Part shown: positions 3,063 to 22,325 of the stretch, piece by piece
Layout: each line of letters opens with the position of its first letter
Numbering within the stretch: the stretch's first letter is position 1
Source of the DNA: Gammaproteobacteria bacterium
GTDB lineage: Bacteria; Pseudomonadota; Gammaproteobacteria; JAJPIJ01
NCBI GenBank assembly: GCA_022072255.1
Contig: JAJVHZ010000065.1
Span: forward strand, 1-64,000
DNA: 64,000 bases
Reading direction: 5' to 3'
Made by a program: the position numbers and the translations under genes
Notes under the pieces: generated by a model
Databases searched by the model: none
The model's input: the letters and a program-made list of their open reading frames with translations, nothing else
Told to the model about the DNA's origin: nothing

Positions 3063-5150
3063 TCAAGAAAGAAAGGGGCTGGGCTGTCCCCAACAAGTCA
3101 CAATCAGCATATCTCTGGCGCGTGTCGCCGCAACAAACAGCAGCGACCGCTCGCGGTCTTCATGTTCGCCCCTGGCTACTGGATCTGATTCGGCCGAAGA
3201 CAATTTCAGCGGAATGGAGCCAGCGTTAACCCCTGCCAGAATCATCACCGGGAACTCCAGTCCCTTAACTCGGTGCATCGTTGCCAGTCGGACGCCCTTG
3301 CCCTCCTGGTTCTTATCCAACAGCGTGTGCGCGATGCCCATGTCTTTGAGAATCGGCTGGTAATTTTCTCGAAGCAATTTGTTCGTTCTTGCTACCAGGC
3401 AAATGTCTTCAAGCTGGCTTTGTTCAATCAGTTCTTTCAATCTCTGCCCGATGGCGCGCTGCTCTTCCTGAAGAGAGGGGCAGCGAATCACCTCAGGCTT
3501 GGAGCCGAACAGGCGTGAGATGTACCCTTGGGCGCTGACCTTCTGGTCATCCAGGTCGTCTATTTCTACGCCGTGTAACAAAGCCATTGCCCAATCGCGA
3601 ATCTGCTCGGTCGTTCGGTAATTGATCCTCAGTTGAGTCGAGCGTCCCTGGATATTGATGCCGCAATTACGCAAAGCCACTTTTACACCGTAAATCCTCT
3701 GGTGGGCGTCGCCCACCAGAAACAGTCCGTTCGGGCCTGGCGGCGAGATCGCTCGAATCAACTTCCACTCTTCCGCATGAAAGTCCTGAGCCTCATCCAC
3801 AATTACCGCGCGGTACGGCAGGGCGGGCTTCTTCCGCTCGATGAACCGCCGGGTCTGCCGGATGACGCTCAGCCAATCGTGTTTCCCTTGCGCGTTGAGA
3901 GAATTCAAGTAGTTTTCAAAAATCGCCCAGACCCGCGCTCTTTGCGGGCGGATGAGTGTCTGTCCCCGCCCTTTTCGTGAGACTTTGAGGTAATCGGCTT
4001 TGTCTTCGATTTCGTTCGCCCAGACTACCTGTTCCCATTCCTGTTTCAAAAAACCGACGTCGAACTCAAGATCTTCAGCGGTGATCACAGCGTCCTGCCA
4101 GAATTTATCCAATTCCTCATTCGTGGCGATCTTGAATTCGACGCCCTGCTTTTTCATAAATCGTACGGCCCAGGCGTGCAGATGCACTATCTCGATCCCT
4201 TCTCTTTCATCGCCGCAAAGATTCGCCAGGTTTTGCTCGACGTTCTGCGCCAGGTTGGCGGTATAGGTGGTAAACAGAATTCGGTCGTTCGGCTCAGAGC
4301 ACGATACTTTCGCCAGATGTCTGGCCCGATGCATCGCCACAACCGTCTTGCCGGTTCCCGCGCCTCCAATGATCTTCGCGGGGCCGTTGAAGTTTTTCGA
4401 AACAAGTTGCTCTTGAGTGGGATGCAGAAAGATTCGCCATTTCTCGAGCGGGGCGTCCAACATCGCATTCAATTCGTCATCAGTGTGGACAGTGACAAAA
4501 CGGCGCCGCGAATCGGGATGGTCCAGAGCCTTCGCCAAATCAGTGGTATCTACAGGCTCTTTTCCGGGTTGTGCGGAGACGGCTTTGCGCACCTCATCGG
4601 GCGGCATCTCTTCGGCAAGCCAGATCAAAGCTTCAGCCGCTTCGGCAGGTAAATGTTTGGCGAGGGCGTGCAATTCTTCTTTTTCTTGTACAGCCCGCAC
4701 CGCCGGCAACAGAACGCTCGGCACGGCGAACGAGAGCAATAATTCATCATCGAACTGCGCCAAGACGCCGGCGCGCTTGCCGCGACCAGTCTTCGGCTGA
4801 ACGGCTTCTTGAACCTGATTGACACTGACGACCTGCAATGCGCCAGTAACGGGATTGATCTCGAAGCTGCGATTTTCGGCCCAGGCCATCGCCTCGTCGT
4901 GGTTATCAACCCAGACCAGCACGTACACATCGCCCGCGTCAGGGTGGAGCACGACCGCGCGGTATTTTTGATCAATCCGCACCGTTCTCACTTTCGGGTC
5001 TTTTACGGAGTGAATCTTTTCGTAGTTGATCGCGGAGGAAGTGGGATCGGTCTTGAATTTCTCGGTGAACTCCCTGACCTTTTTCTGTTGGGCGCGGGGG
5101 ACGCGGGCGAATGCGTCAAGGAAATCGCTGGCTATGGCAACCGTTGGCAT
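3063..5150 (-). CDS. UvrD/Rep-type superfamily 1 helicase with N-terminal RelE/ParE-like domain
   Basis: The ATG at 5150 follows the drmB stop by five bases and has CGGAG nine bases upstream, giving 695 residues. Residues 1-100 resemble a RelE/ParE-like fold: a helix pair with RAQQKKVREFTEKF, then strands with KVRTVRIDQKYRAVVL and a closing segment WVDNHDEAMAWA. The helicase part has Walker A GGAGTGKT near residue 260, Walker B DEAQDF near 450 and motif VI LLFVAATRARD near 667. This is a DNA translocase/helicase with a toxin-like domain that may sense or cut RNA or regulate the motor; that role is inference. It sits where class 1 DISARM loci usually carry drmC and is probably co-transcribed with drmB. 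Confidence 0.85.
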   Translation of the reverse strand: MPTVAIASDFLDAFARVPRAQQKKVREFTEKFKTDPTSSAINYEKIHSVKDPKVRTVRIDQKYRAVVLHPDAGDVYVLVWVDNHDEAMAWAENRSFEINPVTGALQVVSVNQVQEAVQPKTGRGKRAGVLAQFDDELLLSFAVPSVLLPAVRAVQEKEELHALAKHLPAEAAEALIWLAEEMPPDEVRKAVSAQPGKEPVDTTDLAKALDHPDSRRRFVTVHTDDELNAMLDAPLEKWRIFLHPTQEQLVSKNFNGPAKIIGGAGTGKTVVAMHRARHLAKVSCSEPNDRILFTTYTANLAQNVEQNLANLCGDEREGIEIVHLHAWAVRFMKKQGVEFKIATNEELDKFWQDAVITAEDLEFDVGFLKQEWEQVVWANEIEDKADYLKVSRKGRGQTLIRPQRARVWAIFENYLNSLNAQGKHDWLSVIRQTRRFIERKKPALPYRAVIVDEAQDFHAEEWKLIRAISPPGPNGLFLVGDAHQRIYGVKVALRNCGINIQGRSTQLRINYRTTEQIRDWAMALLHGVEIDDLDDQKVSAQGYISRLFGSKPEVIRCPSLQEEQRAIGQRLKELIEQSQLEDICLVARTNKLLRENYQPILKDMGIAHTLLDKNQEGKGVRLATMHRVKGLEFPVMILAGVNAGSIPLKLSSAESDPVARGEHEDRERSLLFVAATRARDMLIVTCWGQPSPFLS

Positions 5151-5155
5151 TGTGT

Positions 5156-7372
5156 TTACTCCGTCAGCAATGTTTGAAGCTCCGACTTGCGTCTGGTCAG
5201 TTCGGCGGCGTTGAATACGCGCCAACCGCGTGACTCGAACGGCTCTCTGAACTCGTCGTTTTCCGGCAGCAGAACCGCGATCTTCTTACCCGGCCAGGCG
5301 AGTTCCGCCCCAGCGCAGACGCGCCCGCGTTCATCCTGCAATTCGTAGCCGACGACGGGCAATGGCATGCCGCTCTCGGCCCACGACTGGACGAAGTCCT
5401 TACAACTCTCGTCGCAATATTCGAGAACCTCCGCGAACTCCGGCGATAGGGGCTTCGGTTTCGGCGGCGACAAAGATTCATCGGTTCGCGCCGTGACGGT
5501 CTCTTGAGGAAGCGCTTCCGAGAATCCCTTGAAAAACGCAAACTCCGCGCGCTCCACAGTTGAGACCAGCGCCGTGCGGTCAAGGTATTTGTTGCCGCGC
5601 TCGCATGATGTTTCCGGTAGAAAAAGGCAGGCGTGGCAGGCCGCGCCGTGCAGGCGGTCTCCGTAAGGATGATGCTCGGCGCAGAGCGGATCCGAAGCGC
5701 ACAATCGAATCTCCTCAAGCGCCTGATCCAGGTGGCGGGCCAGTGTCTTCGGTTCCCCCAGGCTAACCAGACCTCCAAGCGTCCCTTCGCTGTCGGGCGC
5801 TGCGGTGTAAAGCAGTATCCCGGCCATCGGCTCCTCGTCGCCGTTCACCGCGCGCGAATAGATGCGCTCGCGGATGCTGGCGGCCGTGTATCCGCATTCC
5901 AGCGAAAATTGCCGGATCAGAGCGTGCGCCAGCGAATGCAGCAGGATGTACCGCATCGTCGGATAGTTCGCTTCCGGCTCCGGCAACCCGCGGCTCGCCC
6001 GCCAGCGTTTGTGCGCGCCGAAGAACTCGGCGTCCAGCGTCTTCACTCTTTTCAACCAGTCTTGAACGGCCTCTTCGGCGAAATGCAGGAAGATGCCCTC
6101 GCCGCGCACGTCGGATGTCGGCGCCCAGCGCGGCGGCGTCCGGCTGAGCGGCGCCCTGAACTCCTCGGGCAATTCGGCCATCCCGCTGTAATCGCCTGGC
6201 GATTCGATGCGCGTAAAACCAATCAGCGATTGAACCTCGCGCAATCGTTCGGCCAGCACCACCTTGCGCAGAATCTGCTGATAACCGTCCGGCGGTTTGA
6301 CTTCCTTCAGCTTGAAATCGCGGCTGTTCAGCTTCGGGTCCGGGTTCGAGAAGACCTTCCATTCAGGCTTGCGCAGATCGGAAGCGTCCTCGTCTTCCTG
6401 ATCCGATCCGCTCTTCTTCTTCTCGATCCCCTCCCAAATCTGCTCTTCGGAATAGGCCGACAAACCGTGCAGCAGTTTTCGTTTCAATTTCACTTCGCGG
6501 GCGCTTTCGCATTCTTCAAGCTCGGCCCAGTTCTGTTCGATCAACTGTCCGAGCTTGTCGGTCGTCGTTGGGAGAGATAAAGCCGACAGCATCAACGCGA
6601 ACCAACTGTTCGACGCTCCGAGCAAAATCCCACGTTGAAATTGTTTGCATTCCTTCTCGTCGAATTTCCGCAAATGCGGCCAGCGGCCCCGGCAGGACGG
6701 CAACTGCGACTGGCCGTCGGGACCGAACGCGTCGCTCATTCGCCGCTTCTTGTCGCATTTGACGCACTGAGCCTGAATGTCGGCGACCTCGCCCGACGCG
6801 CCGAGTTCATACAAACGCAACTCGTACCGGCAATCTGTCTTTCCCCGATGCACGTATTCGACCCAGGGAAAATCGTCCAGGTGGCCGCTCTCACACGCAA
6901 CCAGAAATCGCGCTGGGACTGCGGTGGGAGGCTTACCGGGCTTTTTGCAGTTTCGGTGAACGTACCGGCTGCGGTCTTTTCTGTAGTAATCGAGTTTCAA
7001 TTCAAACAGCCCCGATTGAATTGGCGCCAGCAAACGACAATACGGGCACAGCAGCCAGCGCGGGAACGGCGCGACCGGCACGCCAATGTTGGCCGTGTCG
7101 TCGAATGGGTTCGCCTGAAAGCCGGTTGATTCCGGCGTGACCGGCGGCGTCAGCAGCTTGACCACTTGCTGCCCCAATTCCTGCTGCACGGCGCGCAGCA
7201 AACGCGGCTCGTTGATTTCGCTCGCCCCTTGTTCGACCGGCCAATCGTCCAGCCCCATCACCATCACCGATAAATTCGGCAGTTCGACAACCGCGCCCAC
7301 GCCGAACGTGTGCAGCAACTGGCTGGGCCGCAACTCTCCCACTTTCTTCTTCTCACGGGCGATGCCTCTCAT
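5156..7372 (-). CDS. drmB: DISARM protein DrmB (DUF1998)
   Basis: A 738-residue protein with the opening typical of DrmB, LRPSQLLHTFGVGAVVELP. It has cysteine pairs that probably bind zinc (CPYC near residue 109, CVKC near 205) and a C-terminal DUF1998 block with a cysteine/histidine cluster around residues 557-590 (CAEHHPYGDRLHGAACHAC). DrmB forms a complex with the helicase DrmA that restrains phage DNA entry or replication in DISARM. Its ATG overlaps the drmA stop by four bases (ATGA), so the pair is translationally coupled. Length and domain order are normal for the family. No disruption is visible. Confidence 0.93.
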   Translation of the reverse strand: MRGIAREKKKVGELRPSQLLHTFGVGAVVELPNLSVMVMGLDDWPVEQGASEINEPRLLRAVQQELGQQVVKLLTPPVTPESTGFQANPFDDTANIGVPVAPFPRWLLCPYCRLLAPIQSGLFELKLDYYRKDRSRYVHRNCKKPGKPPTAVPARFLVACESGHLDDFPWVEYVHRGKTDCRYELRLYELGASGEVADIQAQCVKCDKKRRMSDAFGPDGQSQLPSCRGRWPHLRKFDEKECKQFQRGILLGASNSWFALMLSALSLPTTTDKLGQLIEQNWAELEECESAREVKLKRKLLHGLSAYSEEQIWEGIEKKKSGSDQEDEDASDLRKPEWKVFSNPDPKLNSRDFKLKEVKPPDGYQQILRKVVLAERLREVQSLIGFTRIESPGDYSGMAELPEEFRAPLSRTPPRWAPTSDVRGEGIFLHFAEEAVQDWLKRVKTLDAEFFGAHKRWRASRGLPEPEANYPTMRYILLHSLAHALIRQFSLECGYTAASIRERIYSRAVNGDEEPMAGILLYTAAPDSEGTLGGLVSLGEPKTLARHLDQALEEIRLCASDPLCAEHHPYGDRLHGAACHACLFLPETSCERGNKYLDRTALVSTVERAEFAFFKGFSEALPQETVTARTDESLSPPKPKPLSPEFAEVLEYCDESCKDFVQSWAESGMPLPVVGYELQDERGRVCAGAELAWPGKKIAVLLPENDEFREPFESRGWRVFNAAELTRRKSELQTLLTE

Positions 7373-10300
7373 TCGGCTCCCTCCTCGTCTGAATCGCCGC
7401 CCTCGATGTCTTCGCTGTCCTCGCTAACTGGCGCTTCGAAATCCGGGTCTTCATCCATCCCGCCGTCGTGGAAGATCAATCCGACCGTCGGCTCGACGTC
7501 ACGAAGCGAATTCAGGCAGGTGAAATCGTCCCACGGGTCAAGGCTAGGCCGGCGCAGCAAGCCCACCGTCAACCCGTCGCGCTCGCCGTCATAACCCAGC
7601 ACGCGCCCGCCGACGTTCTTCTGCGCTTCGGCCAGCCATTGATCCAACCGCTCGTTCAATTCGCCGCGCACGAGTTGTTCAACCTCCGGCCCGGCGCCGA
7701 CCAGATGCGCGCGGCGCGTGATGATTTCTATGGCCTCCTTGATGTACGGATGATTCCGCTCGATGCGGCTGGCGTGTTTGTTGGGGTTGAACTCCGAGCC
7801 TTGCAACCGCACGCAGGAGACCAGCAGCGCCGTCAATCCTCGGCTGATCGCGCCCAGCGCAAATGGCGTCACCGACAGCGCCTCGACGTGTTTGTAAAAT
7901 GTCGCGTGATAATGCTCGAAACTTTCGTAATGCGACAGGTCGCGCGGGCGCGCCCAGTTGCAGACGGTAATAACCAGTCCCGGAAATTTACGTCCGACGC
8001 GGCTTGTTGATTGAATGTATTCGGCCGTGGTCTTGGGCTGCCCGGCGACCACCATCAGCCCCAAACGCTGCACGTCCACGCCAACCGAGACCATGTTCGT
8101 CGCCAGCAGCACGTCGAGCGGCCGCTTCGGCAAATCCTTAAGCATGGCCGCCCCCTTCTTCTGCAATTCCTTCCGCTTGGCTTCCAGCAGCGGGTCGAAT
8201 CCCACTTCCAGATGATCCAGAACTTCCGGTATGTCGGTCGAGTCTTTGCGCGAGGTCAATTCGTCAACAGTGTAGATCGGGCGCCTCGACAGCCCGCGTT
8301 GATCCATCTTGCCCAATCGCGTGCGCACGTCGTCGTCCACCAATCGTCGCATCCCGCCCAGCTCGCGCATTGAGTTGAAATAACCGATCAGCGTCATCCA
8401 CGGATCAACTTCCGGGCCGTAGCCCTTCTTTTCGTAAAGCGTCTGCGAGGCCGAAAGCAGCGCGACGTACACGCGGATGAGCGCGACTTTCAATCTGCGC
8501 CCCGAAGCGCAAATGCCGATGTACCGCCGCCCCGGCGTATCTTCCGAAGGCGGGCGCTGGCGCGAGAAGAAGTTATCGCGCACGTCCAAACCCTGTGGCG
8601 GAAAGATGTTCACCTGTCGCAGAAACGTCGCGTAGACCTGGTCTCCCGCTTTACGGATTGTCGCGGTCGAGGCGATCACCTTCGGACGGACAACCTTGCC
8701 GTTCACCTCCCACGAACAGAGCTTGTCCACCGCCGTTTCGTACAGCCCGACCAGCGTGCCGAGCGGGCCGCTGATCAAATGCAATTCGTCCTGGATGATC
8801 AAATCGGGCGGCCGCAATTTTGAATGAGGCTTGGTCCTGGCCGCCGGATGGTTGTCCTTCTTCGGATGGGAATCGGAATCTTCTATCTCCGGCGAGCGGA
8901 AGCCGTGCCGGTCGCAGTAAGCTTCCACCTGGCCGAAGAGCATCTGCGTTTTTCCGTTCCACGGCATCTGCGCGAATTTATCCACCGTCGCGATCAGCAG
9001 CGTCGGCAATCGGCGATAAATTTCTTCGTCCACCACCAGCACGGGAATGCCTTCCAGCGGGGATTTCTTCGAACCGAAGTCGCATCGCCCCAGCGCATCG
9101 CCGCAAAACGTCACCGTCCGGCCACGCCCTTTTTTGTAACTCTCGACCTTGATGTCGCGGCCCGGATCAATCTTCGATCCGCACCACGGGCAGTTGGTCA
9201 ACTGCGCAGGCGAACCGCTGAGCTTGCCGCCCTTGAAACCGCCCTGTCCGTGCGCCAGTTGAATCGCTTCGTCGGCCTGATCGGTCGTGTTCGGGGTCGT
9301 CTTCTGCCCGACCCACAACCCGATGCGGAAAGGTTCCGTGCCCCACTTCTTCTCGTCCGTGCGCCGGATCACTTCGCAGGCGCAGATGAGCGCCGTCGCG
9401 CGCTGAAACTGCTGGATCGTCAGCAGCCGCAGCGTGTAGCGCATCAACACCGCAACGCCGTGCTGGCCTGACCGCCCGGCGACTTCGCCCTGCAATCGCC
9501 GCAACCCCATCGTGTAAGCCGACAGTCCCAGATACGCTTCGGTCTTTCCGCCGCCCGTCGGAAACCAGAGCAGGTCGGCCACCGCCTCGGTTTCGCCTGT
9601 GCGGTCAACGTGATTGAGCTTCGTGATGCCCGGCAGGTTCAGCAGCACGAACGCAAGCTGGAAAGGATACCAGGAGCGGTTTGGCGCAACGTCAATCGCT
9701 TTCAAATCGGCCCCTTCGCCGCGCCGCCTCCTCAGCGAGTAGATCGAACGAACGCGCTGCTGCCACATCGCCAGGTTCGCGAACCGGAACGCTTCCGCAG
9801 CCTTCTCGTCCGAGCAGATCAATTTCAACCCGGCCTCGATTCTGGCCAGCGCCGTGCGGCAACGCTCCAACGCGGCTTTGCCGGCTTCGCGATGCGGCTC
9901 CATCTCCGGCGCGTTCAATTCCGCCTCGCGCTCCTTGATCCACGCCTCATACGCCACCAGCAGCGGACGCAGCTTCCGATCGAAATCATCCGTCTTCGTC
10001 TCGCCCAGCTCTTTCATGTCCAGCGACAACCCGGCCAGCTTCGGGATTTCGGCGATGACGGGTGGCGTGGTTTTTGGGACTTCGTAAGCGGGCACGACCC
10101 TGGTCGAGACTCGCAGCGCGCGGTCGTAAACGCCTTCGGGAGATTCCGCGTGGATGCTTACTCCGTGGCCGACGCCGAATTGGACGCAGTGGCGGTAAAG
10201 CATCGCCAGTTCCCGCTCTTCGGCGTAAACGACCGGATCGCTTTTGCCCGGTTCGCGGCGGCGCGAATGCGGACGGAAGATCGGTTTGCCGTCGGGCGAC

Positions 10301-10923
10301 TCGACGATCAACTCCGGCTGGAACAGCCACGCCGTGTCGCGCAGCTTTTTCGGCTCGCTCTGCCCGTTGACCAGAAACAGCGTCACAATCCAGTAATGGT
10401 CGCGGCGGCGAATGACGCCCTGCACTTCGACTTCGTGAAATTCACCGTCGGGAACCCATCTGACTTTGCCCGTCTTCAACGGAATCGGTTCCGAAACGCC
10501 TTCGCGCTGGCTGCGCTTCCAGACCAGTTTGGGGTTGCCGGCTTCGGTGGTGAGCGTTTCGCTGACCACGCGGGCGTAATGGCCCCAGCGCGCGGTGATC
10601 TGGAACTCCGTCGCCTCGGCGTCTATGCAAAACGTCATGCCGAAAGACGAGGGGAACAGCGTTTTGGCCGTCGGCCCGGTGTATTCGGGGTTTCCCTCTT
10701 CAGCCGTGCCGCTTCCGCCCGCTGGCAGTTCATCGAACTCTTCGGGCGAAAGGTTTTGCTGAGTGGGCGCGAGCATCCCTACCAGGTAGCGGTCGCGCAC
10801 GCTCTGTTCGGTGACCTCTTCGGCAGGCCCGTCCGCAGGCCCCAGCAGGTCATTCAACACCATCTCTTCCAATTCGGCGCGAATCCGCATCGGCGAGGGA
10901 ATGCTTTGCAACAAGGTGGTCAT
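7369..10923 (-). CDS. drmA: DISARM helicase DrmA
   Basis: An 1184-residue superfamily 2 helicase. Visible motifs are Walker A FPTGGGKTEAYL near residue 452, a DELH Walker B (IIQDELHLISGPLG) near 708, SATIRKAG near 755, and motifs V/VI in ATNMVSVGVDVQRLGLM through STSRVGRKFPG near 970. A CPWCGSK cysteine pair and a later cysteine pair near residues 580-610 suggest a zinc-binding insertion. DrmA is the conserved DNA-translocating subunit of DISARM and works with DrmB. It is separated from the XisH-like gene upstream by about 115 bases and overlaps drmB downstream. The family is long and this copy looks intact. Confidence 0.93.
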   Translation of the reverse strand: MTTLLQSIPSPMRIRAELEEMVLNDLLGPADGPAEEVTEQSVRDRYLVGMLAPTQQNLSPEEFDELPAGGSGTAEEGNPEYTGPTAKTLFPSSFGMTFCIDAEATEFQITARWGHYARVVSETLTTEAGNPKLVWKRSQREGVSEPIPLKTGKVRWVPDGEFHEVEVQGVIRRRDHYWIVTLFLVNGQSEPKKLRDTAWLFQPELIVESPDGKPIFRPHSRRREPGKSDPVVYAEERELAMLYRHCVQFGVGHGVSIHAESPEGVYDRALRVSTRVVPAYEVPKTTPPVIAEIPKLAGLSLDMKELGETKTDDFDRKLRPLLVAYEAWIKEREAELNAPEMEPHREAGKAALERCRTALARIEAGLKLICSDEKAAEAFRFANLAMWQQRVRSIYSLRRRRGEGADLKAIDVAPNRSWYPFQLAFVLLNLPGITKLNHVDRTGETEAVADLLWFPTGGGKTEAYLGLSAYTMGLRRLQGEVAGRSGQHGVAVLMRYTLRLLTIQQFQRATALICACEVIRRTDEKKWGTEPFRIGLWVGQKTTPNTTDQADEAIQLAHGQGGFKGGKLSGSPAQLTNCPWCGSKIDPGRDIKVESYKKGRGRTVTFCGDALGRCDFGSKKSPLEGIPVLVVDEEIYRRLPTLLIATVDKFAQMPWNGKTQMLFGQVEAYCDRHGFRSPEIEDSDSHPKKDNHPAARTKPHSKLRPPDLIIQDELHLISGPLGTLVGLYETAVDKLCSWEVNGKVVRPKVIASTATIRKAGDQVYATFLRQVNIFPPQGLDVRDNFFSRQRPPSEDTPGRRYIGICASGRRLKVALIRVYVALLSASQTLYEKKGYGPEVDPWMTLIGYFNSMRELGGMRRLVDDDVRTRLGKMDQRGLSRRPIYTVDELTSRKDSTDIPEVLDHLEVGFDPLLEAKRKELQKKGAAMLKDLPKRPLDVLLATNMVSVGVDVQRLGLMVVAGQPKTTAEYIQSTSRVGRKFPGLVITVCNWARPRDLSHYESFEHYHATFYKHVEALSVTPFALGAISRGLTALLVSCVRLQGSEFNPNKHASRIERNHPYIKEAIEIITRRAHLVGAGPEVEQLVRGELNERLDQWLAEAQKNVGGRVLGYDGERDGLTVGLLRRPSLDPWDDFTCLNSLRDVEPTVGLIFHDGGMDEDPDFEAPVSEDSEDIEGGDSDEEGAE

Positions 10924-11038: not shown

Positions 11039-11458
11039 TTAAAGCCATCTCACGACCTCTTCATCGAGAGGGTCGAAAACAAGAATCCTGATCTTCTCTT
11101 TAGCGCGCAATTCTTCACCTTCCGGCGATTGGAAGATTGAGGCATAAACATCATCTCGAATCGCCAGAAACAACCTCCTGGGTGGTTCGTTTCCGCGCAG
11201 CGCATATTGATAGAGCATGAATTCACCAAGCGCGCTATACAAATCAACCATCTGAGACGGGCCGAGAAAACTCGTGACCGCGATGGCGATTCTCTCGGTG
11301 TCTTTTTCAGCGCCGATCAATCGTTCTCCTTCAGGATGAAGCGGCAGGTCCGTCCGCGGCCATCGAACATTCAGCGGGTCGTCGGTGATCCTCCAGCCGT
11401 CTTTTTCCAGCGCCCGTATGACAGCTTGACGAAAGATGTCTTTGCGATCACTCGCCAT
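11039..11458 (-). CDS. xisH: XisH-like protein (fdxN element excision controlling factor family), altered nuclease motif
   Basis: A 139-residue protein that fits XisH over its full length: ALEKDGWRITDDPL, ERLIGAEK, SFLGPSQMVDLYSALGEFML and the ending LVFDPLDEEVVRWL. XisH has a PD-(D/E)xK nuclease-like fold and was first linked to fdxN element excision in cyanobacteria; it usually sits beside xisI. In the family the core reads like IAVEIKSF, supplying the E-x-K residues. Here the matching segment is IAIAVTSF, so both catalytic positions appear lost. No xisI lies next to it. GAGGAGGTAGCG precedes the ATG, a strong ribosome site. Its role in the DISARM cargo block is unknown. Confidence 0.85.
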   Translation of the reverse strand: MASDRKDIFRQAVIRALEKDGWRITDDPLNVRWPRTDLPLHPEGERLIGAEKDTERIAIAVTSFLGPSQMVDLYSALGEFMLYQYALRGNEPPRRLFLAIRDDVYASIFQSPEGEELRAKEKIRILVFDPLDEEVVRWL

Positions 11459-12506: not shown

Positions 12507-12584
12507 ACTCAAATTTTATACTCTGTTCACTTGAAAAGGAATCGCCGGCAACCGGCGCAGCTTTAACCAATCCAAGCCCCGCGG

Positions 12585-13049: not shown

Positions 13050-13069
13050 ATTTGGTGAAATGGGTGGCG

Positions 13070-13516: not shown

Positions 13517-13559
13517 GAATGCATCTACCTCCATGTCAAGTTGGGGCACACTGCTTCAG

Positions 13560-14597
13560 TTACGACAGCTTGATTCCCGCGAAACTCTCTATTTTCCGAA
13601 GCGTCCGCGCAAGGCGACGAAGTTTCTCGAGCCGCGCTTCGTTACCGTCCTGCAACGCAGTGATTTCCTGAAGGGAAATCGTCTCAAGCTCGGCGCTCGC
13701 CTGGTCAATAGCGCTGTAAAGGTTCGATACCATGGAGGGATTAGCATCTTGCAGAAGCACACGAGCCGCTCGGATACCCTCCTTTTCAAACTTGTGCAGC
13801 GCGTCTGCATTCTCCAGGATGGCAGGTAGATCACGAACGTCCTTCGACTCCGGCAGCTTGCCATCGAATACCCACTGGCCAAAACGGCGCATGAAGTCCG
13901 GATCTCGCTCTGTCCAATCCCGCAGAGGCTTCTTCCTCATAAACTCTTCAAAATGGGAGAACCTGTTAATTCCCTGCGGATCTCCTGTTCGTTCCAAATA
14001 TGCTCTTGTTTCTTCAAACGCTGAGATCTTTTGCGATAGCTTCGAGCGTGACCAGCGAAGATGAGTGGAAAGGAAGTCATAAGTCTTGCCATGGACCTTG
14101 TTCATCTTCCACACATACTCCGCCTGGTCGAAAGCTCGCCATTCAATCTTACCGGCAATATGGAGTTCCCCAAGCAACAGACTGATCTGCTCTTCAGTAA
14201 CATTGGGGGGTAGAACGCGCACCCACACCTTAGAAAATCGGTCATCATCGGAATATTTCTTATGTAACTCGCGCATTACGACGGTTCGACAGTTACCCTC
14301 CACGACCGTGCTATCTACTCTAACGACCGGATCCTCAAGGAGACCTCCGTTCTGGTAAACACTCTGGTAAAGCGCCTTCACCTGATCAATATCCCATAGA
14401 ATCTTGTGGAGCTCTGCATCGTTGACTGTAGGCGCCTTCTTGTGCTGTCGCAGCAAATAGCCGAGTCGCTGATTGTTCGGGTCCAACCGGAGTTTTTCTA
14501 CCGGCCAGAGCTCGCGTTTGACAGAAAAGTCCGCATTGCCTAGCCGAAAAGTTAAAACGCTACCGTTATTTCCTGCCTGTTCAATTTGTTCTGCCAT
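13560..14597 (-). CDS. ParB/Srx-like domain protein
   Basis: GGAGGT seven bases before the ATG at 14597 sets the start and gives 345 residues; an ATG at 14675 lacks a ribosome site. The N-terminal half holds a ParB-type domain: LRLDPNNQRLGYLL, then YQNGGLLEDPVVRVDSTVVE, then the motif EGNCRTVVMREL, matching the GNHR signature of the ParB/Srx fold with Cys in place of His. ParB-type folds include CTP-binding partition proteins and nucleases. The C-terminal half is helical and may bind DNA or partners. Chromosome partition is unlikely given the context; a DNA-binding or nuclease role in the defence locus is more plausible. A palindrome lies about 85 bases upstream. Confidence 0.78.
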   Translation of the reverse strand: MAEQIEQAGNNGSVLTFRLGNADFSVKRELWPVEKLRLDPNNQRLGYLLRQHKKAPTVNDAELHKILWDIDQVKALYQSVYQNGGLLEDPVVRVDSTVVEGNCRTVVMRELHKKYSDDDRFSKVWVRVLPPNVTEEQISLLLGELHIAGKIEWRAFDQAEYVWKMNKVHGKTYDFLSTHLRWSRSKLSQKISAFEETRAYLERTGDPQGINRFSHFEEFMRKKPLRDWTERDPDFMRRFGQWVFDGKLPESKDVRDLPAILENADALHKFEKEGIRAARVLLQDANPSMVSNLYSAIDQASAELETISLQEITALQDGNEARLEKLRRLARTLRKIESFAGIKLS

Positions 14598-14680
14598 TGA
14601 ATTGACCTCCAATTTAATTTCGAGGCGTTTGATGACCTCGCGCAGGACTATATGCGCACCGCGATAGTCTGTCAACAGTT

Positions 14681-14704: not shown

Positions 14705-14884
14705 TCCGCCACTAGACTAGCAGGAAGCACGGGCGAATTCCGGGGAAGCCGCAAACTCCTGACAACGGTCTAGACTCTGGTGCCGATTTATGCGACGAAC
14801 AACTTATTGTTGAACAATGGTTTAGTCTCCGTCTTATCACCCGTCCAGGGCCGACGAACTTTTTCATAAAGCGGATGCGCCGCT

Positions 14885-17800
14885 TCAATCTTCAAACAAG
14901 TCTTTCTGATCCGATGTGGCGAATAGCTCCGGCTGTCGCTTGACGCCGCCCGGCGCGGCTTTGCCGGTTCCTGATTTGCCCTTCGCGCTCTTTTTCGTCG
15001 CAGCCTTCTTCTTCGCGCCCTTCTCGTGCAGCCCTTCGGCCACCTCTTCGGCGTAGCGTTGGTGATTGAGTTCCAGCAAACGGTCGAGAACTTCGCGCCG
15101 CGCCGCTTCGCTGATCGTGAAGCGCACGCCCTGTTTCGTCTCGTGAAAATCGTGGTCGAGCCGCAAGTCCGTCCAGCCGTAGGCGCGGGCGACGGCCTCA
15201 TCCATCTCCTGGTGCAGTTCGCGCAGGCGGCCAATGTCGGTGGAAGATTCTTCGGGGTTGTGAAAGCGGTTGTAGGTTTTGGTCAAGCCTTCCTGACGCG
15301 CGAGCATGATGGATTGGCGGTGTATGTGGTATTGATCGCCAACCTCTTCAAGCATGTTTGTCGCTACCGGGAATGGAAATGTGTCAAATAAATCCGAAGG
15401 AGCATAGCGCAACGTAGCTCCCATTGTTGAGCAATAACGATAGGCCCAACTTACATGAGCTGCCGACTGCAACACAGCAAAAGAACCATACTTTTGTAGT
15501 CCAATTACAACGTGAGGTGCAGAATAGACCCACCCAGTTGGAACAAAATCGAAATTGACGTATTTGCTTGTAAAGCTATGAAAGAGAACTCGTGGCAGAT
15601 TTCTTATCTTTGCATAGCTTTCTAATCGCTTGTCCGAAAATTTCCAAAAGTCTGGTTCGTGTATTTGACCTGTCCTTGAATCAAAATAAGGTTTTACTCT
15701 AACTTCTAAAATGCGCAGACATTCGGGATATTCCGAGGCTTTCTCGTAATCCCAATCTCTAAAATTGATCACCCATCTTTTGGGTTCACGAATTGGGTCC
15801 GTGTTAAATTCCTGCCCCCCAAGAAATGGCTGAATCACATCAGTATTTTTTGGATTGCTTTGCAAAAGCTGCTCTACTTCAGGTCTCTCTAAAACGAACC
15901 CGACACACCCGGTAGTAGATCCCTTAAATGCTGCTCCTTCATTGGATTTAAGCTTATATGGATTCCCGGTGTTCCGGCCTATCTCCGTAAGTGCGGAAGA
16001 AATTTGTGAAGTAAGCTTACCATCGAGGCTAAAGACGCCGCTCCATTTATAACGTGTCATCCATACTAACGTTACAATTACGGATGCGGCACCATACCAA
16101 TTCACATTAGTGTTAGCCCGTATAAGGCTCAACCCTTCTCTTAAAAGCTGGTCTAATCCTAGTTGCCTAGTATCACCCTGAGAGATTGTATTTGTGGTGA
16201 TATAGCCAATAAATCCACTACTGTTTAATAGTGATCCACCTCTGAGTAAGAAGAATGCGCAAATATCTGCGTAACTTGCCTTCTGGCCATTAGCTATCTG
16301 CTCACCTATGTAACTTCGATAACCTTCACCACAAACTTTGTTAATATCTATCCCTTTTAGAAAAGGGGGATTCCCAACAAGCATATCGAACCCGTTCCGC
16401 TCAACAAAAACCTCAGGAAATTCAAGCGGCCAATGAAACGTCATCCGTCCATTTAGTACCTTTTCCGCAGCCTCTTTGAACTTCCCAATCTCTTTATTCT
16501 CGACGTAATAGTTTGCCTGAATCGCCGCGTTGTTCTGCCAATCCTCCTTTTGACGCGCATTGCCCGTGCGGAACTCGACCGCTACCAGCAAGTCTGCGGC
16601 GTAGCGCAACTGCGCCGTCTTCGCTTCGGCCTCGGCCAACAACTGCTGCTGGATTTCGGCGTCTTCAACGTGCTCTGCTGGTCGTGCTTCGATGCGTTTG
16701 CGCAAGGCGATTACTTCATCGGCTACTTTTTCAACAGCACTAGTGAAATAGCTCTTCTGCTTATTATCAAGATCGAGCGTGAAGTATCTGATCTGATCCA
16801 AGTGATGTATGCCAACAAGCGAATCGCCGGGGCGGACGGCGTGATCCAGAAAGGTGAACGGTTTGTCTTTGGCCAGCGTCAACAGCCACAGACTGAGCTT
16901 GGCCATCTCGACGGCCAGCGGATTTTTGTCCACGCCGTAAAGACAGCGCTGCGCGATGATGCGCTGGGCGTATGACATCCGCTCGTCGGTCTCTTGCGGA
17001 ATCAAGGCTTCATCGAGCGCGCCGGTGGCGACGGCGCCTTCGGGCGTAATGCGCGGCGCGCCGGGCTGTTCTTTCTCGATCTCTTCCCAGGCTTCGACCA
17101 GCCGTTCGGAAAGATAGCGGCACGCCTGCACCAGAAACGCGCCCGACCCGCAGGCCATATCGCAAATCTTCAGATCGAGCAGTTCGCGCGGCGAACGCAG
17201 CCGCCATTCCTCTTTCGGCTTGCCTTCCGCTGGGCCGACATAAACCAGCGGCTCCAGCGTGTATTGCACAATCGGTTCGGTCAGAGAGCGCGGCGTGTAA
17301 TGCGTGCCGCTGGAACGCCGGTCGGTTCCCTTGGTGACGTAAACGCTCCCCTGCGGAATGACGACGGGGCGGTCGAAGGAATCGTCGCGGACGAACGCGG
17401 CGAACGGGCGGACGCGTTTGAAGAGCGCTTCGTCGTTGCCGCACGCGGCGCGCATCCGGTTGATCTGGTCGGTTTCGAGTTCGGCTTCGAGCAACCGCCG
17501 CAATGCGTTTTCCGACTTGCCGGTCTGTTCGCGCAAAAACTTGATCAGTTCGTCGTCGCCCGACCCGCGCACGCGTTCCAATTCGCTGAGCGCGATCTCC
17601 GGCTCGTCGCCTTTCGTCCCGATGAGGCCCAGCACGGGCGTCGCCGCGCGTTTCGCTGTGTGATCGAGCAAGCCTTCGTAAACGTGGCCGATCTGTTCGA
17701 TGTCCAGTGCGCGGAAGCTCAACCGCCGCGCCTCGCCCTGCATCTCCAGGTATTGCAGCGAGCGCAGCAGGTGCAACACCGTGCGGTTGTTGATCGGCAG

Positions 17801-18961
17801 CGGTTGGGCGGGCGCCTCGCGCCATTTGGTTCCCTCGGCGCGGCCTTCCAGAAACGGGAAGCGGTCGGGATCGAAGAGTCGCCCGCCATACGCCGGCAGC
17901 TTCATTCGCTCGTGCTCGACGCCGCCGAATACGGCGCGAAATGTCGAGAGCAACCGCACCCACGCATCCAGCCGCCGCTCCAGAACCTCTTCGCCGTGCT
18001 GGTCGGCGGCCTCCTGCAATTGCGCGATCAAGGTCGAGACGGCGTAATGCTGGTCGTAGAGCGGATCGCCCAGCAGCAACAATCCCCGCTCTTCGGCGCA
18101 GAAGAGAAACACGAGGCGCATCATCACTGTCAGCGCCGATTCGTAGAGCACGGGTTCGGGCACGCGGGCCAGCAACGCGCGCCCGTTGTCCTGGTCGGCG
18201 CGGTCGAGCGATTGGATCAACACCTCGACGGCGCGGCGCACCTGATAACCGAGTTGATCTGTGACCTCTTGCTGATGTTTGGCGCTCTCACGCAGCATCG
18301 CATCAAGCGTCTCGTCATCCGGAACCGCGAAAAATCGCTTCACTCCGAGCAGGCTCGTGAAAGCCTGAAGCGTGATCTTCTCCTCCATCCACAAACTGGC
18401 GTACCACGAAGCGTAGCCGGTCGTTTCGCCGCGCGGCGCGTAAACCAACATCCAGCGTTCGCCGTTGGTGACCAGGCCCAGCTTCACATCCGAAGCGTGC
18501 AGCAACTCCATCATCCGCGTCGCTGGCGAAGCCTTCCAATGGCGTTCGGCGACGGGTTTCTCCAAATCCTGATCCGCCGGGTAGACCTGAATCAGCAATC
18601 GCGGCTGATGAGCGGGTTCGCCATCCGCCGGATTGCGGACAATGATGTCGGGCCGCAGCATCTCGCCGTGTTCCGAAACGGTGGCTTTGATGGTTTCGGG
18701 AATGGATTGGCCTTCGGCGAGGACTTCAGCAGGCAGCCCCAGCGTCTGTTCGAGCACGTATTTGATCCAGGCGCGATGGAGCGCGGGCTTGTCCGCATTC
18801 TCTTCCCACTCTTCAAACGCGAGGCGCAGGTTGCGGTAATGGTCAGGGTCGTGGGCGTCCAGGCCCTGAGGAAAGACCCGTTCGAGCACCGGCATCGTGA
18901 GGAACGGGCCGGAGACTTCGACGAGCGAGAGCCATTCTGCGTGGTGACGTTTGCTGGACAT
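14885..18961 (-). CDS. drmMI: DISARM class 1 DNA adenine methyltransferase DrmMI
   Basis: A 1358-residue protein with methylase motif I DMACGSGAFLVQ near residue 600 and catalytic NPPF near residue 860, the order of an Eco57I/type II-like N6-adenine methylase. The N-terminal 500 residues form the DrmMI-specific region; the C-terminus ends in a lysine-rich low-complexity tail (KKKAATKKSAKGKSG). Methylation of the host genome marks self in DISARM. Between roughly residues 820 and 1200, covering NPPF and the probable target-recognition part, the DNA is much richer in A+T than the flanks, suggesting replacement by recombination. The ATG has AGAGGAT upstream. drmD lies 157 bases upstream, beyond a long inverted repeat. 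Confidence 0.92.
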   Translation of the reverse strand: MSSKRHHAEWLSLVEVSGPFLTMPVLERVFPQGLDAHDPDHYRNLRLAFEEWEENADKPALHRAWIKYVLEQTLGLPAEVLAEGQSIPETIKATVSEHGEMLRPDIIVRNPADGEPAHQPRLLIQVYPADQDLEKPVAERHWKASPATRMMELLHASDVKLGLVTNGERWMLVYAPRGETTGYASWYASLWMEEKITLQAFTSLLGVKRFFAVPDDETLDAMLRESAKHQQEVTDQLGYQVRRAVEVLIQSLDRADQDNGRALLARVPEPVLYESALTVMMRLVFLFCAEERGLLLLGDPLYDQHYAVSTLIAQLQEAADQHGEEVLERRLDAWVRLLSTFRAVFGGVEHERMKLPAYGGRLFDPDRFPFLEGRAEGTKWREAPAQPLPINNRTVLHLLRSLQYLEMQGEARRLSFRALDIEQIGHVYEGLLDHTAKRAATPVLGLIGTKGDEPEIALSELERVRGSGDDELIKFLREQTGKSENALRRLLEAELETDQINRMRAACGNDEALFKRVRPFAAFVRDDSFDRPVVIPQGSVYVTKGTDRRSSGTHYTPRSLTEPIVQYTLEPLVYVGPAEGKPKEEWRLRSPRELLDLKICDMACGSGAFLVQACRYLSERLVEAWEEIEKEQPGAPRITPEGAVATGALDEALIPQETDERMSYAQRIIAQRCLYGVDKNPLAVEMAKLSLWLLTLAKDKPFTFLDHAVRPGDSLVGIHHLDQIRYFTLDLDNKQKSYFTSAVEKVADEVIALRKRIEARPAEHVEDAEIQQQLLAEAEAKTAQLRYAADLLVAVEFRTGNARQKEDWQNNAAIQANYYVENKEIGKFKEAAEKVLNGRMTFHWPLEFPEVFVERNGFDMLVGNPPFLKGIDINKVCGEGYRSYIGEQIANGQKASYADICAFFLLRGGSLLNSSGFIGYITTNTISQGDTRQLGLDQLLREGLSLIRANTNVNWYGAASVIVTLVWMTRYKWSGVFSLDGKLTSQISSALTEIGRNTGNPYKLKSNEGAAFKGSTTGCVGFVLERPEVEQLLQSNPKNTDVIQPFLGGQEFNTDPIREPKRWVINFRDWDYEKASEYPECLRILEVRVKPYFDSRTGQIHEPDFWKFSDKRLESYAKIRNLPRVLFHSFTSKYVNFDFVPTGWVYSAPHVVIGLQKYGSFAVLQSAAHVSWAYRYCSTMGATLRYAPSDLFDTFPFPVATNMLEEVGDQYHIHRQSIMLARQEGLTKTYNRFHNPEESSTDIGRLRELHQEMDEAVARAYGWTDLRLDHDFHETKQGVRFTISEAARREVLDRLLELNHQRYAEEVAEGLHEKGAKKKAATKKSAKGKSGTGKAAPGGVKRQPELFATSDQKDLFED

Positions 18962-19000
18962 TCCGATTCAATCCTCTTTCAACATTCCAGGTAGGGCAGA

Positions 19001-19093: not shown

Positions 19094-19118
19094 TTCCGTT
19101 TTCCCAAATATCAAAACC

Positions 19119-22100
19119 CTACCTTCCATATCTGCCCGCCAACATCTCCGGCACGAGATAGGTCACCGCCACTGGAAACATTCGCGGCTGCGGGTCGGCG
19201 AAACGGGCGCGGATGGCGGCCTGCTCGCGTTCGATCTCAGCCGGGATGGCGCGGACGCGGGCGCGCAACGCGTCGTAGTTGCGCTCGAACTGTTCTCGCT
19301 CGGCGGGCGCCAGGCCGGGCAGGAAGCTTTGAGTCAATTCCGGGTCGTCCAATTGCTCCTGAATCGAATTGAGCAGTTCGGTCATGATCGTTTTGATGTC
19401 GGCGGCCTCTTTTTCGGCGCGCACGGTCAGCGTCTTCTGCAAACTCTCGGCGCGCTCTTTCATGCGGGCTTCGAGCGCCAGCCGCAGCGATTCGGAATTC
19501 TTCGGCCACAATTTGATCAAATCCTGTTTGACCATTTCGGAAGGCTCGCGGTCGGTGGCGGCGCGCAGCGCGTCTTCCATCTCGCGCAGCGTATTGAATC
19601 GCGAGAATCGCCCGCCGATCAACTGGCCGCCGGCGGTGATGACTTCTTCGTGCAGCCGATGGCGGTCGCCGCCGATGACGACCAGGCGCGCGTGCGCGAT
19701 CATCGCCGGGTGGCGTAGCGCCGAATCAGGCGCGATGCGGGCGGCGATGCGATTCAAACGCTTGCTGCCTTCCAGCGACCAGACCTCGGCGCGCAACAAC
19801 CGCAGGCTCATTTGAACCAGGCGATGGTTGAGGTGAACGAGAACAACATCTTCGCGGCCCCGCGCCAAATTATGGTCGAAGGTGAACGGGCGGACTTGTT
19901 CCTTGAACAACGGGTGCGCCAGCCCGTCGGCGCACAGCCCCCAACTGCCCGACAACGCGGGCAGATGAAAGACAGGGCATTTGCGCTGATTGGGATCGGG
20001 CCAAACACCTTCGACTTCGGCCTGGATCAACGGCGGCTGATCGGCCAGCGCCAGCGCGACCTCTACGACCTTCTGAATATTTTCGGGCGACAGTCGCAGC
20101 TCGCGTTTGGTCTCGTGCAAACGATCCATCAATTCCCTGATCTGCTTCTGTAAGTCGCGCTCGAATTTGAAGAGCTTGCGCACTGGCTCGGCTTCGTCTT
20201 CGGCCCGGCGCGTATCCAGGCGGCTGCGGCGGCCCAGCATCGCTTCTTCGACCTGTTGAGCGATGACGGGGCCGACTTTGCCCAAATCTTCGCGGATCGT
20301 TTCGACCTTCCGCACGGCGCGCATCAGGAATTCCAGATCGGCTTCGAGATCGCCGACGGAGGTTTCGGCCAGGTTGCGCTCGCGCTCGCGGTAGCCCTTG
20401 CCGACGAAGTGATGGATCAGCACCTGCTTGGCCTTTTGTCCGTGGCGGTCTACGCGGCCATTGCGCTGTTCCAGGCGGTTGGGATTCCAGGGGATTTCGT
20501 AATGAATCAGCCGCGAGCAGTGATTTTGCAGGTCAATGCCTTCGCTGGCGGCGTCGGTGGCAAGCAGGATGCGCACGGGACTTTGTTCGGGATCGGTCTG
20601 GAACGCGGCCTTGATCTCTTCGCGCTTGTCGGCGTCCATCCCGCCGAACATCGTCATCAGCCGGTCGCCGCCGGTCAGCCCCTCGGCGGCCAGAACCGAG
20701 TAGAGCCAATTCTGCGTCGCGCGGTATTCGGTGAAGATGATGACGCGGTTGTTCGACCATTTGCCGCCGGGCCGAATGTTTTCGTGTAGCCAGGCGACGA
20801 GAGTTTTGGCTTTGGCGTCGAGATGCGCCGAGGCGGACTCCGCCCAGGTCTTCATCTGTTTGAGCAGGGCGGCTTCTTCGCCGGAGAGTTCCTGAAACAG
20901 CAGGCTCGCCGAATCAACCGCATCGTCGGTGGCGTCCTCTGCTTCGTCGTCAATCCAGTATTCCTCTTCGACGCGATCAATCTGTCGCTGCAAGACGCCG
21001 GGTGTGGGCTTGGCGGCGGATTTGCGGCGTTTGGAATTCTTGATCGTCTTTTCGTGTTGATCGAGCGTGCGCGCGAAAGCGGCGGGGCTGGAGAAGAGCC
21101 GCTTTTTGAGCGTCTTCAGAACGAATTCGGTGGCGACGCGCTGGGCAGTGTCTGAAGCTTTCGCGCTTCGCAGTTTTGCGTATTCGCGCAGCGCCGCGTG
21201 TATCTGGCGCTCTTCGGCCGGGTAATCCACTTCAAGAGATTCAATTGATCGCGTCGCAAAACGGGGATTGCCGAAATCATCCACGGCGAGGGCGGGATCG
21301 GATTTCAGCCGCCGAACCATCACGGCATCCAACTGTTTCCTGTCGGGCGACGTGCCGCGCGCGAACCGCTGATTGTCGAGCAGCTCCAGCAGCGCCGAGA
21401 AACTCTCCGGATAGCCGTTGTGTGGCGTGGCGGTCAAAAAGAGTTTGTGTTCGAAGTGCGGGGCGAGCAATCGGATGGCCTCGGTGCGTAAAGAATCTGT
21501 CGCGTATTTGCCGCGTCCTGACGGAGCGCAGTTGTGCGCTTCGTCCACGATCAGCGCGTCGTAGCGTCGCGGGTAGACCGATTCACCCTCCGACGGCAGC
21601 GTCTCTTTGAAAAGCCGCAGCGGGCGTTCGCGCTTGAGGAAATCAATCGAGGTGATGAGGCGCGGAAAATGCGACCAGGGGTTGACGTGGATTCCGCGCT
21701 TGCGACGCAGGTCTTTCAGCAGATCGCTGTCAACGATGCGGAAATCGAGACCGAATTTGTCGCGCATCTGGTCGCGCCATTGCATCTGCAACGAGGCTGG
21801 GCAGACGACCAGAACCCGCCGCGCGCGATGCCGGATGATGAGTTCGAGGATCGTCATTCCGGCTTCAATGGTCTTGCCGAGTCCGACGTCGTCGGCGATG
21901 AGCAAACTGACGCGCGGCATCTGGATGGCGCGGAAGACCGGATCGAGTTGGTAATCTTCGATGGAGATGCCCGACCTGAACGGCGATTGGATCGAGCGGA
22001 TGTCGGCGGTCGAAGCGGCGCCCCAACGCACCGCGTCGAGAAATGCGTCCAGCCTGTCAGGAGAATCGAAGCCGGTCGGTTCAGGCAAAGCGACTCGCTC

Positions 22101-22325
22101 AATGACCGACGCGCCAGGTTCCAGTTCCCAGATCACTTGCAACTCTTCTCCCAACGCGTCGTCTTCGACGGATGAGAGCGTGACCAGATGCTGGGCGCCG
22201 TTGGACAGAGTTTTCACCGGGGTCAGGGGCAGAGCGCTTTTGGCGATTTCACTGACAATGTACCTGCGCTGCCTGATGTTCACGAGTTGGCCTTGTTCCG
22301 GCGGTCTGGTTGTAGCAAAAGCCAT
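19119..22325 (-). CDS. drmD: DISARM class 1 SNF2-family helicase DrmD
   Basis: The ATG at 22325 has a GTGGGAG ribosome site; a start at 22394 is possible but lacks one. The 1068-residue protein has the SNF2 order of motifs: Walker A-containing LIADDVGLGKTIEAGMTILE near residue 145, CPASLQMQWRDQM, DEAH in LIVDEAHNCAPSG near 259, FLTATPHNGY, then C-terminal IIFTEYRATQNWL and EQRNGRVDRHGQ near 620. The C-terminal third is helical and charged, with possible coiled coils. DrmD is the class 1 marker of DISARM and is thought to act on DNA with the DrmA-DrmB complex. It is first in the operon; drmMI follows after the inverted repeat. Confidence 0.92.
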   Translation of the reverse strand: MAFATTRPPEQGQLVNIRQRRYIVSEIAKSALPLTPVKTLSNGAQHLVTLSSVEDDALGEELQVIWELEPGASVIERVALPEPTGFDSPDRLDAFLDAVRWGAASTADIRSIQSPFRSGISIEDYQLDPVFRAIQMPRVSLLIADDVGLGKTIEAGMTILELIIRHRARRVLVVCPASLQMQWRDQMRDKFGLDFRIVDSDLLKDLRRKRGIHVNPWSHFPRLITSIDFLKRERPLRLFKETLPSEGESVYPRRYDALIVDEAHNCAPSGRGKYATDSLRTEAIRLLAPHFEHKLFLTATPHNGYPESFSALLELLDNQRFARGTSPDRKQLDAVMVRRLKSDPALAVDDFGNPRFATRSIESLEVDYPAEERQIHAALREYAKLRSAKASDTAQRVATEFVLKTLKKRLFSSPAAFARTLDQHEKTIKNSKRRKSAAKPTPGVLQRQIDRVEEEYWIDDEAEDATDDAVDSASLLFQELSGEEAALLKQMKTWAESASAHLDAKAKTLVAWLHENIRPGGKWSNNRVIIFTEYRATQNWLYSVLAAEGLTGGDRLMTMFGGMDADKREEIKAAFQTDPEQSPVRILLATDAASEGIDLQNHCSRLIHYEIPWNPNRLEQRNGRVDRHGQKAKQVLIHHFVGKGYRERERNLAETSVGDLEADLEFLMRAVRKVETIREDLGKVGPVIAQQVEEAMLGRRSRLDTRRAEDEAEPVRKLFKFERDLQKQIRELMDRLHETKRELRLSPENIQKVVEVALALADQPPLIQAEVEGVWPDPNQRKCPVFHLPALSGSWGLCADGLAHPLFKEQVRPFTFDHNLARGREDVVLVHLNHRLVQMSLRLLRAEVWSLEGSKRLNRIAARIAPDSALRHPAMIAHARLVVIGGDRHRLHEEVITAGGQLIGGRFSRFNTLREMEDALRAATDREPSEMVKQDLIKLWPKNSESLRLALEARMKERAESLQKTLTVRAEKEAADIKTIMTELLNSIQEQLDDPELTQSFLPGLAPAEREQFERNYDALRARVRAIPAEIEREQAAIRARFADPQPRMFPVAVTYLVPEMLAGRYGR

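Follow-up and report, generated by a model that had tools for sequence, protein, structure and literature searches.

We analysed a window of 64,000 nt from the Gammaproteobacteria bacterium assembly GCA_022072255.1 (contig JAJVHZ010000065.1, positions 1–64,000, base 1 being the contig start; a draft of 128 contigs, 95% complete). Its minus strand carries a class 1 DISARM operon whose last core protein, DrmB, continues in frame into a C-terminal tail of the kind that ends ArmC of ARMADA type II; an armD gene follows directly, and behind it lie remnants of drmC and hmaC. Window genes were assigned with profiles from PADLOC, Pfam and NCBIfam and compared with related loci (L numbers) from a DrmA-based scan, using the best 80 of 172 DrmA relatives.

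The four core genes stand in class 1 order, drmD, drmMI, drmA and drmB, all on the minus strand. drmD (19119–22394; first in-frame ATG at 22325) encodes an SNF2-like helicase and matches PADLOC PDLC02621 with 1417 bits and NCBIfam NF038317 (DISARM_DrmD) with 1347 bits against a cut-off of 610. drmMI (14885–18961), a PglX/MmeI-like adenine methyltransferase, scores 1791 bits with PADLOC PDLC02643 (DrmMI), its second-best PADLOC kind being a type IIG enzyme at 1232 bits; in NCBIfam it has PglX matches only, far under cut-off. drmA (7369–10923), a YprA-like helicase, reaches 1132 bits with PADLOC PDLC02567, and the whole drmB open reading frame (ORF; 5156–7372, 738 amino acids (aa)) reaches 711 bits with NCBIfam NF038324 (DrmB_fam; cut-off 240), PADLOC likewise assigning it to DrmB. 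The last two are separate adjacent genes, as in class 1 DISARM.

Expected motifs are all present: Walker A and DEAH in DrmD, Walker A and DELH in DrmA, and NPPF and GSGAF in DrmMI. The nearest relative of DrmA, in L012, shares 67% identity in the best segment, an AlphaFold2 model of DrmB matches 7s9v_B, the DrmB of the DrmAB structure, with a TM score of 0.89 on the target, and 86 positions are invariant in an alignment of 52 DrmB sequences (the window and 51 of 66 relatives' DrmB). The profile searches thus agree with the first-pass annotation, which had described a class 1 DISARM with these four genes in conserved order on one strand; judged from its sequence, the locus genuinely belongs to class 1 DISARM, its drmC being broken.

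An ArmC-type tail on DrmB and an armD gene behind it

The conserved DrmB core, residues 1–614 (5531–7372, minus strand), ends about where most relatives' DrmB stop in the 52-sequence alignment; those measured mostly end within ~20 residues of this core, with L084 as the exception. In the window the frame runs on for 124 residues (5156–5530, minus strand), and this extension shares homology with two protein ends, the terminal domain of ArmC and the tail of the Zorya II protein ZorE. The first-pass annotation, right about the core genes, had missed both this extension and the kinship of the helicase behind it with ArmD.

By tblastn, the tail matches the C-terminus of plasmid "DEAD/DEAH box helicase" proteins, that is, ArmC (36% identity over 99 aa, E 4e-8, 21 records), aligning with residues 2001–2095 of a 2,113-residue plasmid ArmC. 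A profile built from 15 ArmC tails, the window excluded, recovers the window DrmB at E 2e-23 (81 bits) and three ZorE frames from the genome searches described below at E 1e-9 to 2e-13 (37–50 bits); run on six-frame ORFs of at least 80 aa from the 80 related loci, it matched none. The PADLOC ZorE2 profile in turn gives 51.5 bits with the window tail (E 2e-14, positions 284–366 of 375) and 33.5 bits with the plasmid ArmC tail. PADLOC's label "HNH endonuclease" was not adopted for the tail, the match being limited to those ZorE2 positions, which we take to follow the HNH part; the ZorE preprint likewise places a C-terminal extension there (PMC13192584). Of 59 leaves of Druantia III-associated ZorE, the same preprint credits 53 with a nuclease-like region at the C-terminus, and because of the profile match we infer that this region and the DrmB tail are the same domain. 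For ArmC, Bell et al. (PMC12458937) describe an end that often, not always, bears inactivated EEP and Vsr-type nuclease domains.

Low-confidence models of the tail show helices, three strands, a helix and a strand, the order of the alpha-beta-beta-beta-alpha-beta core of Vsr-type PD-(D/E)xK nucleases. In structure comparison they come closest to VRR_NUC (Z 5.1), followed by TnsA, TSEN and unrelated UEV domains at Z 4.1–4.3; on these models the terminal domain is possibly PD-(D/E)xK-like. Foldseek with a tail-only model found no match at E 0.001, a PDB sequence search with the tails gave E 0.13–0.19 only, and in Pfam the window tail had no match, single other tails reaching no better than E 0.08–0.17. 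In the alignment, read by eye, an acidic residue at the second strand is kept (Glu690 of DrmB, Asp in plasmid ArmC), and the third strand (KIAVLL) is without the acidic–lysine pair expected of an active site. Because of that missing pair we suggest, with modest confidence, that the tail binds rather than cuts; a pocket reported by the ZorE authors (PMC13192584) urges caution on this point.

Directly behind drmB, armD (3063–5150, minus strand; 695 aa) encodes a UvrD/GajB-like helicase, Walker A and B present, with a RelE-like head that is recognized by its homology to ArmD and has no Pfam match. Aligned along its entire length, the protein shares 43% identity with the ArmD proteins of two ARMADA II systems, one from an Escherichia coli plasmid and one from Pseudanabaena; the highest identity found, 46%, reveals no recent donor. 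Plasmid matches, annotated "ATP-dependent helicase", number 64 records at E 1e-20. Twenty of these were listed, as were 20 of the 21 plasmid records with the tail; 19 of the latter 20 recur in the ArmD list, and in the plasmid regions read the tail and helicase genes are neighbours. All seven ARMADA II loci L121–L127 have an ArmC ending in the tail and ArmD directly after it, and L124–L127, with that same order, come from four genomes of the window's phylum. This agrees with the type II layout of methylase, then an ArmC of ~2,110 aa, then ArmD that Bell et al. give (PMC12458937). A scan of viral contigs for ArmD yielded 2 stretches, neither a relative. At a further ARMADA II locus (L162:12425–16708), armD is in two pieces ~2.2 kb apart and armC in two frames.

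In a tree of 39 helicases (those of at least 640 aa among 52), the window sequence falls with ARMADA ArmD (11 rows, L128 and L129 included; support 99/98). The helicases found between drmMI and drmA in other DISARM loci stand apart (19 rows, 100/100), as do nine other UvrD-type relatives. Cyanobacterial helicases from that drmMI–drmA slot were considered as the source of the window helicase and rejected, with 25–31% identity and a separate clade. Such helicases would then have met DISARM at least twice, once in the slot and once behind drmB here.

The tail is rare, and on DrmB it was seen here alone. Searches of 299, 292, 226 and 231 genomes from four phyla (1,048 in all) returned 8, 7, 3 and 0 matches, the zero of the fourth search, which had no positive control, being weak. 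These 18 genomes comprise this DrmB, 14 ArmC-type frames and 3 ZorE frames; an ArmD match lies in the same stretch for 12 of the 14 ArmC-type frames (the other two, G763 and G708, were judged by frame length only), and the two ZorE frames that were scanned are full-length ZorE. DrmB occurs in 53 plasmid records, and these include none of the 20 plasmid tail records listed (of 21). In three searched genomes of the same genus or family DrmB had no match, so the island is not common to the nearest kin sampled. Among the best matches of a literature search, no description of a DISARM–ARMADA chimera, or of a RelE–UvrD protein in the DISARM slot, stood out. A DrmB with an unrelated 184-residue C-terminal extension occurs in L084 (L084:3822–7931), where the next gene encodes a NERD–UvrD helicase and no DrmC lies near; by its sequence, this is possibly a partial and independent parallel to the window.

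Remnants of drmC and hmaC

Behind armD, a drmC remnant (2700–3023, minus strand) keeps the first ~92 residues, followed by 15 non-homologous codons, and is without the HKD motif. It matches PADLOC PDLC02605 over positions 14–92 of 270 (E 4e-5), a DrmC profile built locally from 46 DrmC of the related loci over positions 11–92 of 269 (E 3.6e-11), and the intact DrmC of L012 with 42% identity over 77 aa. Relatives' DrmC mostly have 260–275 residues with the HKD motif near residue 205; the window ORF stops at 107. drmC had been reported as missing, and indeed no complete copy is present, but simple absence is rejected, the stump lying just outside the interval 3063–22325 to which that report referred. 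Elsewhere in the assembly, PDLC02605 at E ≤ 1 finds two other contigs only; the two frames there (402 and 493 aa) give a phospholipase D (PLD) family match as well.

The drmC remnant adjoins one of hmaC, which encodes an AAA+/DUF499 protein. This second remnant (2087–2758, minus strand) keeps the C-terminal ~212 residues, matching PADLOC PDLC00662 at 729–940 of 941 (E 6e-41) and the intact HmaC of L171 with 49% identity over 220 aa. Its homology runs from about base 2737 downwards. The drmC and hmaC homologies meet within ~10 bases, which we read as a deletion.

Comparison with relatives, the check that had been proposed for the missing gene, gives this its setting. Of 66 relatives that could be tested, 55 have DrmC close to drmB and 11 lack it, after 14 of the 80 loci had been left out for want of a drmB end or of 1,000 bases after drmB; we prefer this profile census to an earlier one by an ORF rule, which gave 45 of 66. 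In L012, the closest DrmA relative, drmB adjoins an intact drmC, and the window arrangement therefore looks derived. A cyanobacterial locus (L171:96–13328, same genome as L068) has drmB followed directly by hmaA, hmaB and hmaC, with no DrmC found near; DISARM and Hma can thus stand in tandem. HmaC was found in 4 of 11 genomes behind related loci. The DrmC PLD nuclease that belongs to class 1 DISARM is lacking in the window. We do not count this against membership, because PMC9142583 presents DrmC as dispensable and frequently absent, and because of the 11 relatives without it.

The drmMI–drmA slot and the surroundings

Between drmMI and drmA lies a gap of ~4 kb with six ORFs of 108–371 aa, all on the minus strand. 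The first (13560–14675, 371 aa) is ParB-like by eye only and has a weak PADLOC match (PDC-M38A, E 3e-14, 203 aa of a 715-position profile). The second (13070–13549, 159 aa) is PC4-like (PF02229, E 1e-18, in two stretches), from what we take to be a family that binds single-stranded DNA, and the third (12585–12911, 108 aa) has no match in PADLOC, Pfam or NCBIfam. A TIR/nucleoside deoxyribosyltransferase-like protein follows (12021–12512, 163 aa; PF13676, E 1e-4, under its cut-off), then a DUF3368 protein, presumably PIN-type (11500–12021, 173 aa; PF11848 above cut-off, PADLOC PDC-S70 at E 6e-25), and finally XisH (11039–11458, 139 aa; PF08814, E 8e-38), behind which there is no xisI because only 115 bases remain to drmA.

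The block and its six genes are as first described. "Foreign-looking", the term then applied to them, is weakly supported: their GC content is 0.51–0.56 against 0.56–0.615 for the four drm genes, so that the ranges touch. Nor is the interrupted core, as it was then called, an anomaly, or the cargo special to this locus. In the 44 of the 80 related loci where both genes are placed in this order and their spacing could be measured, the distance exceeds 1 kb in 33 and is below 500 bases in 11; most of these loci have a filled slot, as a rule with genes other than those of the window, and we rejected the six-gene block as an anomaly.

A UvrD helicase of 696–728 aa sits in 13 of the 33 filled slots (L013, L017, L019, L031, L049 and L087 among them). 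Pfam on two of the 13 gives a ParE-like match for the head in L013 (PF05016) and none in L049, similar heads elsewhere being judged by eye. Class 1 DISARM repeatedly carries such a helicase of ~700 aa, whose head is RelE/ParE-like where it could be assessed. Other cargo is varied (GmrSD, AAA_15, Uma2, DUF3368, XisH, ApeA, TIR and others): with the 13 helicases and ORFs below 125 aa set aside, 77 of the 96 slot ORFs of at least 110 aa were scanned, and among the first 25 of 45 Pfam families none occurs in more than four of the 77 proteins. Five of the window slot proteins (the 371-aa, PC4, 108-aa, TIR and PIN ones) have no match in the 80 loci at E 1e-4; XisH matches in two, within the slot in L022 and elsewhere in L024. 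A slot protein of L013 also carries DUF3368. Accessory genes inside DISARM operons are known, with ~70 ShdA homologues reported in DISARM-like operons (PMC10270631).

At the contig start, positions 1–399 (plus strand) encode the C-terminal end of a family III CoA-transferase, and the defence island therefore seems to end before the contig does. Adjoining it, an ORF of 140 aa (319–741, minus strand) matches no Pfam family and may be a degraded gene. A 436-aa protein with a hydrophobic N-terminus and no family assigned (769–2079, minus strand) lies behind the hmaC remnant. On the other side, a tRNA-Pro gene (24970–25044, minus strand), ~2.6 kb upstream of drmD and next to an ADP-ribosylglycohydrolase gene, is a possible island border; when three genomes from this genus and family were searched for an empty site, the only matches, ~80 bases long, fell at the tRNA.

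Origin of the arrangement and comparison with known systems

We consider it probable that the locus is a DISARM/ARMADA II chimera, a class 1 DISARM that has received an armC end and armD at the drmB/drmC boundary. Its structural basis, the gene identities and junctions, we hold with high confidence: drmB is fused in frame to the tail, tail and armD repeat the ARMADA order, and drmC and hmaC are remnants. The order of events, and the cooperation of tail and ArmD with DrmAB in an expressed, active operon, are conjectures drawn from the sequence. A piece of ARMADA II would have been gained at the drmB/drmC boundary, the 3′ end of armC being fused in frame to the end of drmB and the whole of armD following; a separate deletion would have joined drmC codon ~92 to hmaC position ~729, removing the active site of DrmC and, with it, most of a neighbouring Hma system.

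In a working hybrid, DrmMI would mark self DNA by methylation, DrmA–DrmB would load onto the ends of unmodified phage DNA, DrmD would serve as a second motor, and the grafted tail would bind or position the DNA intermediate and link it to ArmD. ArmD, a superfamily 1 helicase with a RelE-like head, might then act on this intermediate as the downstream arm of a system now without DrmC. Unmodified DNA with a 5′ overhang is the proposed DrmAB trigger (PMC9142583), and each of the four ARMADA II genes, ArmD included, is reported to be needed (PMC12458937).

Several observations weigh against this interpretation. First, among loci that continue for 1 kb or more beyond drmB, 17 relatives have a UvrD-type match upstream of drmA, and 15 of these also have DrmC; this kind of helicase therefore does not by itself replace DrmC; on this ground ArmD was rejected as a clear DrmC substitute. 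The first-pass annotation had suggested that cargo and helicase replace or extend the system; that either replaces drmC is not supported, and extension by the helicase is, in the sharper form of an ArmD-like protein behind a DrmB fused to an ArmC domain. Second, the arrangement was seen in one genome only. Third, tail and helicase do not always go together: the three ZorE-tail genomes are not among the 20 genomes with an ArmD match (the samples of 299 genomes for tail and ArmD being taken as identical), RelE–UvrD-type helicases occur without the tail in L131–L140, and the ARMADA-like L128 and L129 have ArmD but an ArmC tail that matches the profile weakly (E 5e-4 and 4e-6). Fourth, the branch of the window ArmD is long (0.97) and its place within the ARMADA clade has support of 87/77, the tree program flagging such rows as unsure; the tail fold, too, comes from low-confidence models with a top Z of 5.1. 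Finally, the two broken genes at the 3′ end also fit decay.

The alternatives are not mutually exclusive, and our probabilities for them need not sum to one. Decay itself, as a full account, would make the locus a crumbling defence island in which drmC is cut, Hma is a stump, and the armC tail and armD are in-frame debris of a deleted system in an operon that is no longer a working unit. We regard this as unlikely. The truncated drmC and hmaC lie side by side, and the three near-kin genomes without a DrmB match indicate that the island is not a fixed trait; yet drmD, drmMI, drmA, drmB and armD are full-length with intact motifs, the loss of DrmC is described as tolerated (PMC9142583), and debris would hardly be expected to stay in frame while preserving both the gene order and the close spacing of ARMADA. 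A plain class 1 DISARM whose cargo is independent, armD being one more accessory gene and the tail having no role in DISARM, seems to us rather unlikely as well. It draws on known accessory genes such as ShdA and on the varied slot cargo of most relatives examined, but tail and DrmB form one covalent chain, none of the DrmB proteins in the 80 related loci carries the tail, and tail and armD repeat the order found in ARMADA.

That the tail came from a zorE gene of Zorya II and armD arrived separately we think quite improbable: the tail fits the last ~80 positions of ZorE2 better than the plasmid ArmC tail does, but the ArmC-only profile scores the window well above the ZorE frames, and armD stands directly after the tail, as in ARMADA II. 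An assembly chimera, conceivable in a draft of so many contigs, is the least credible account, for two exact false joins would be required, both graft ends lie inside one DISARM operon (in drmB and at the drmC stump) at gene boundaries and in frame, and GC at third codon positions is 0.72 in the tail and 0.74 in the DrmB core, armD being lower at 0.64.

If the chimera reading holds, its interest goes beyond this operon. ARMADA had been proposed as a link between DISARM and Druantia from separate families; a DISARM operon carrying an ArmC end and ArmD would show that parts pass between systems as operon pieces, and the locus suggests that anti-phage defence systems swap working parts. The graft offers a natural construct for probing the role of the poorly understood ArmC/ZorE terminal domain, and it bears on which effector follows DrmAB when DrmC is absent. 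Much more tentatively, this domain may be a portable coupling domain, shared by ArmC, Zorya II ZorE and here DrmB, by which a YprA-type helicase is joined to a partner effector; on that view the window would hold a working hybrid in which ArmD has taken over the step of the lost DrmC, and L084 a second, independent swap.

Among known systems, Hma shares only the C-terminal HmaC remnant with the window: ~728 HmaC positions are gone, the operon has no hmaA or hmaB gene, and DrmD is a weaker relative of HmaA. With ZorE of Zorya II (PMC13192584), there is a homologous C-terminal domain by profile; in the window this domain sits on DrmB without the HNH part of ZorE, in an operon whose genes are assigned to DISARM. 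The likeness to ARMADA type II (PMC12458937) lies in an ArmC terminal domain that is followed directly by ArmD (RelE-like and UvrD), and the window protein is a full-length ArmD homologue within the well-supported ARMADA clade. ArmA and ArmB were not found in the window, where motor and methylase are DrmD and DrmMI (219 and 96 bits, respectively, against Pseudanabaena L122), and ArmC, a single YprA-type chain of ~2,100 aa ending in nuclease domains, has as its counterpart two proteins, DrmA and DrmB, that divide the YprA helicase between them; of ArmC itself only the terminal domain is present, on DrmB. Because ArmA, ArmB and the ArmC helicase are not present, the locus is filed as a DISARM variant and not as ARMADA. 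Like class 1 DISARM, it has full-length drmD, drmMI, drmA and drmB in the usual order, and it differs from that system by a drmC stump without the catalytic motif, by the ArmC-type domain on DrmB and by the armD gene that follows.

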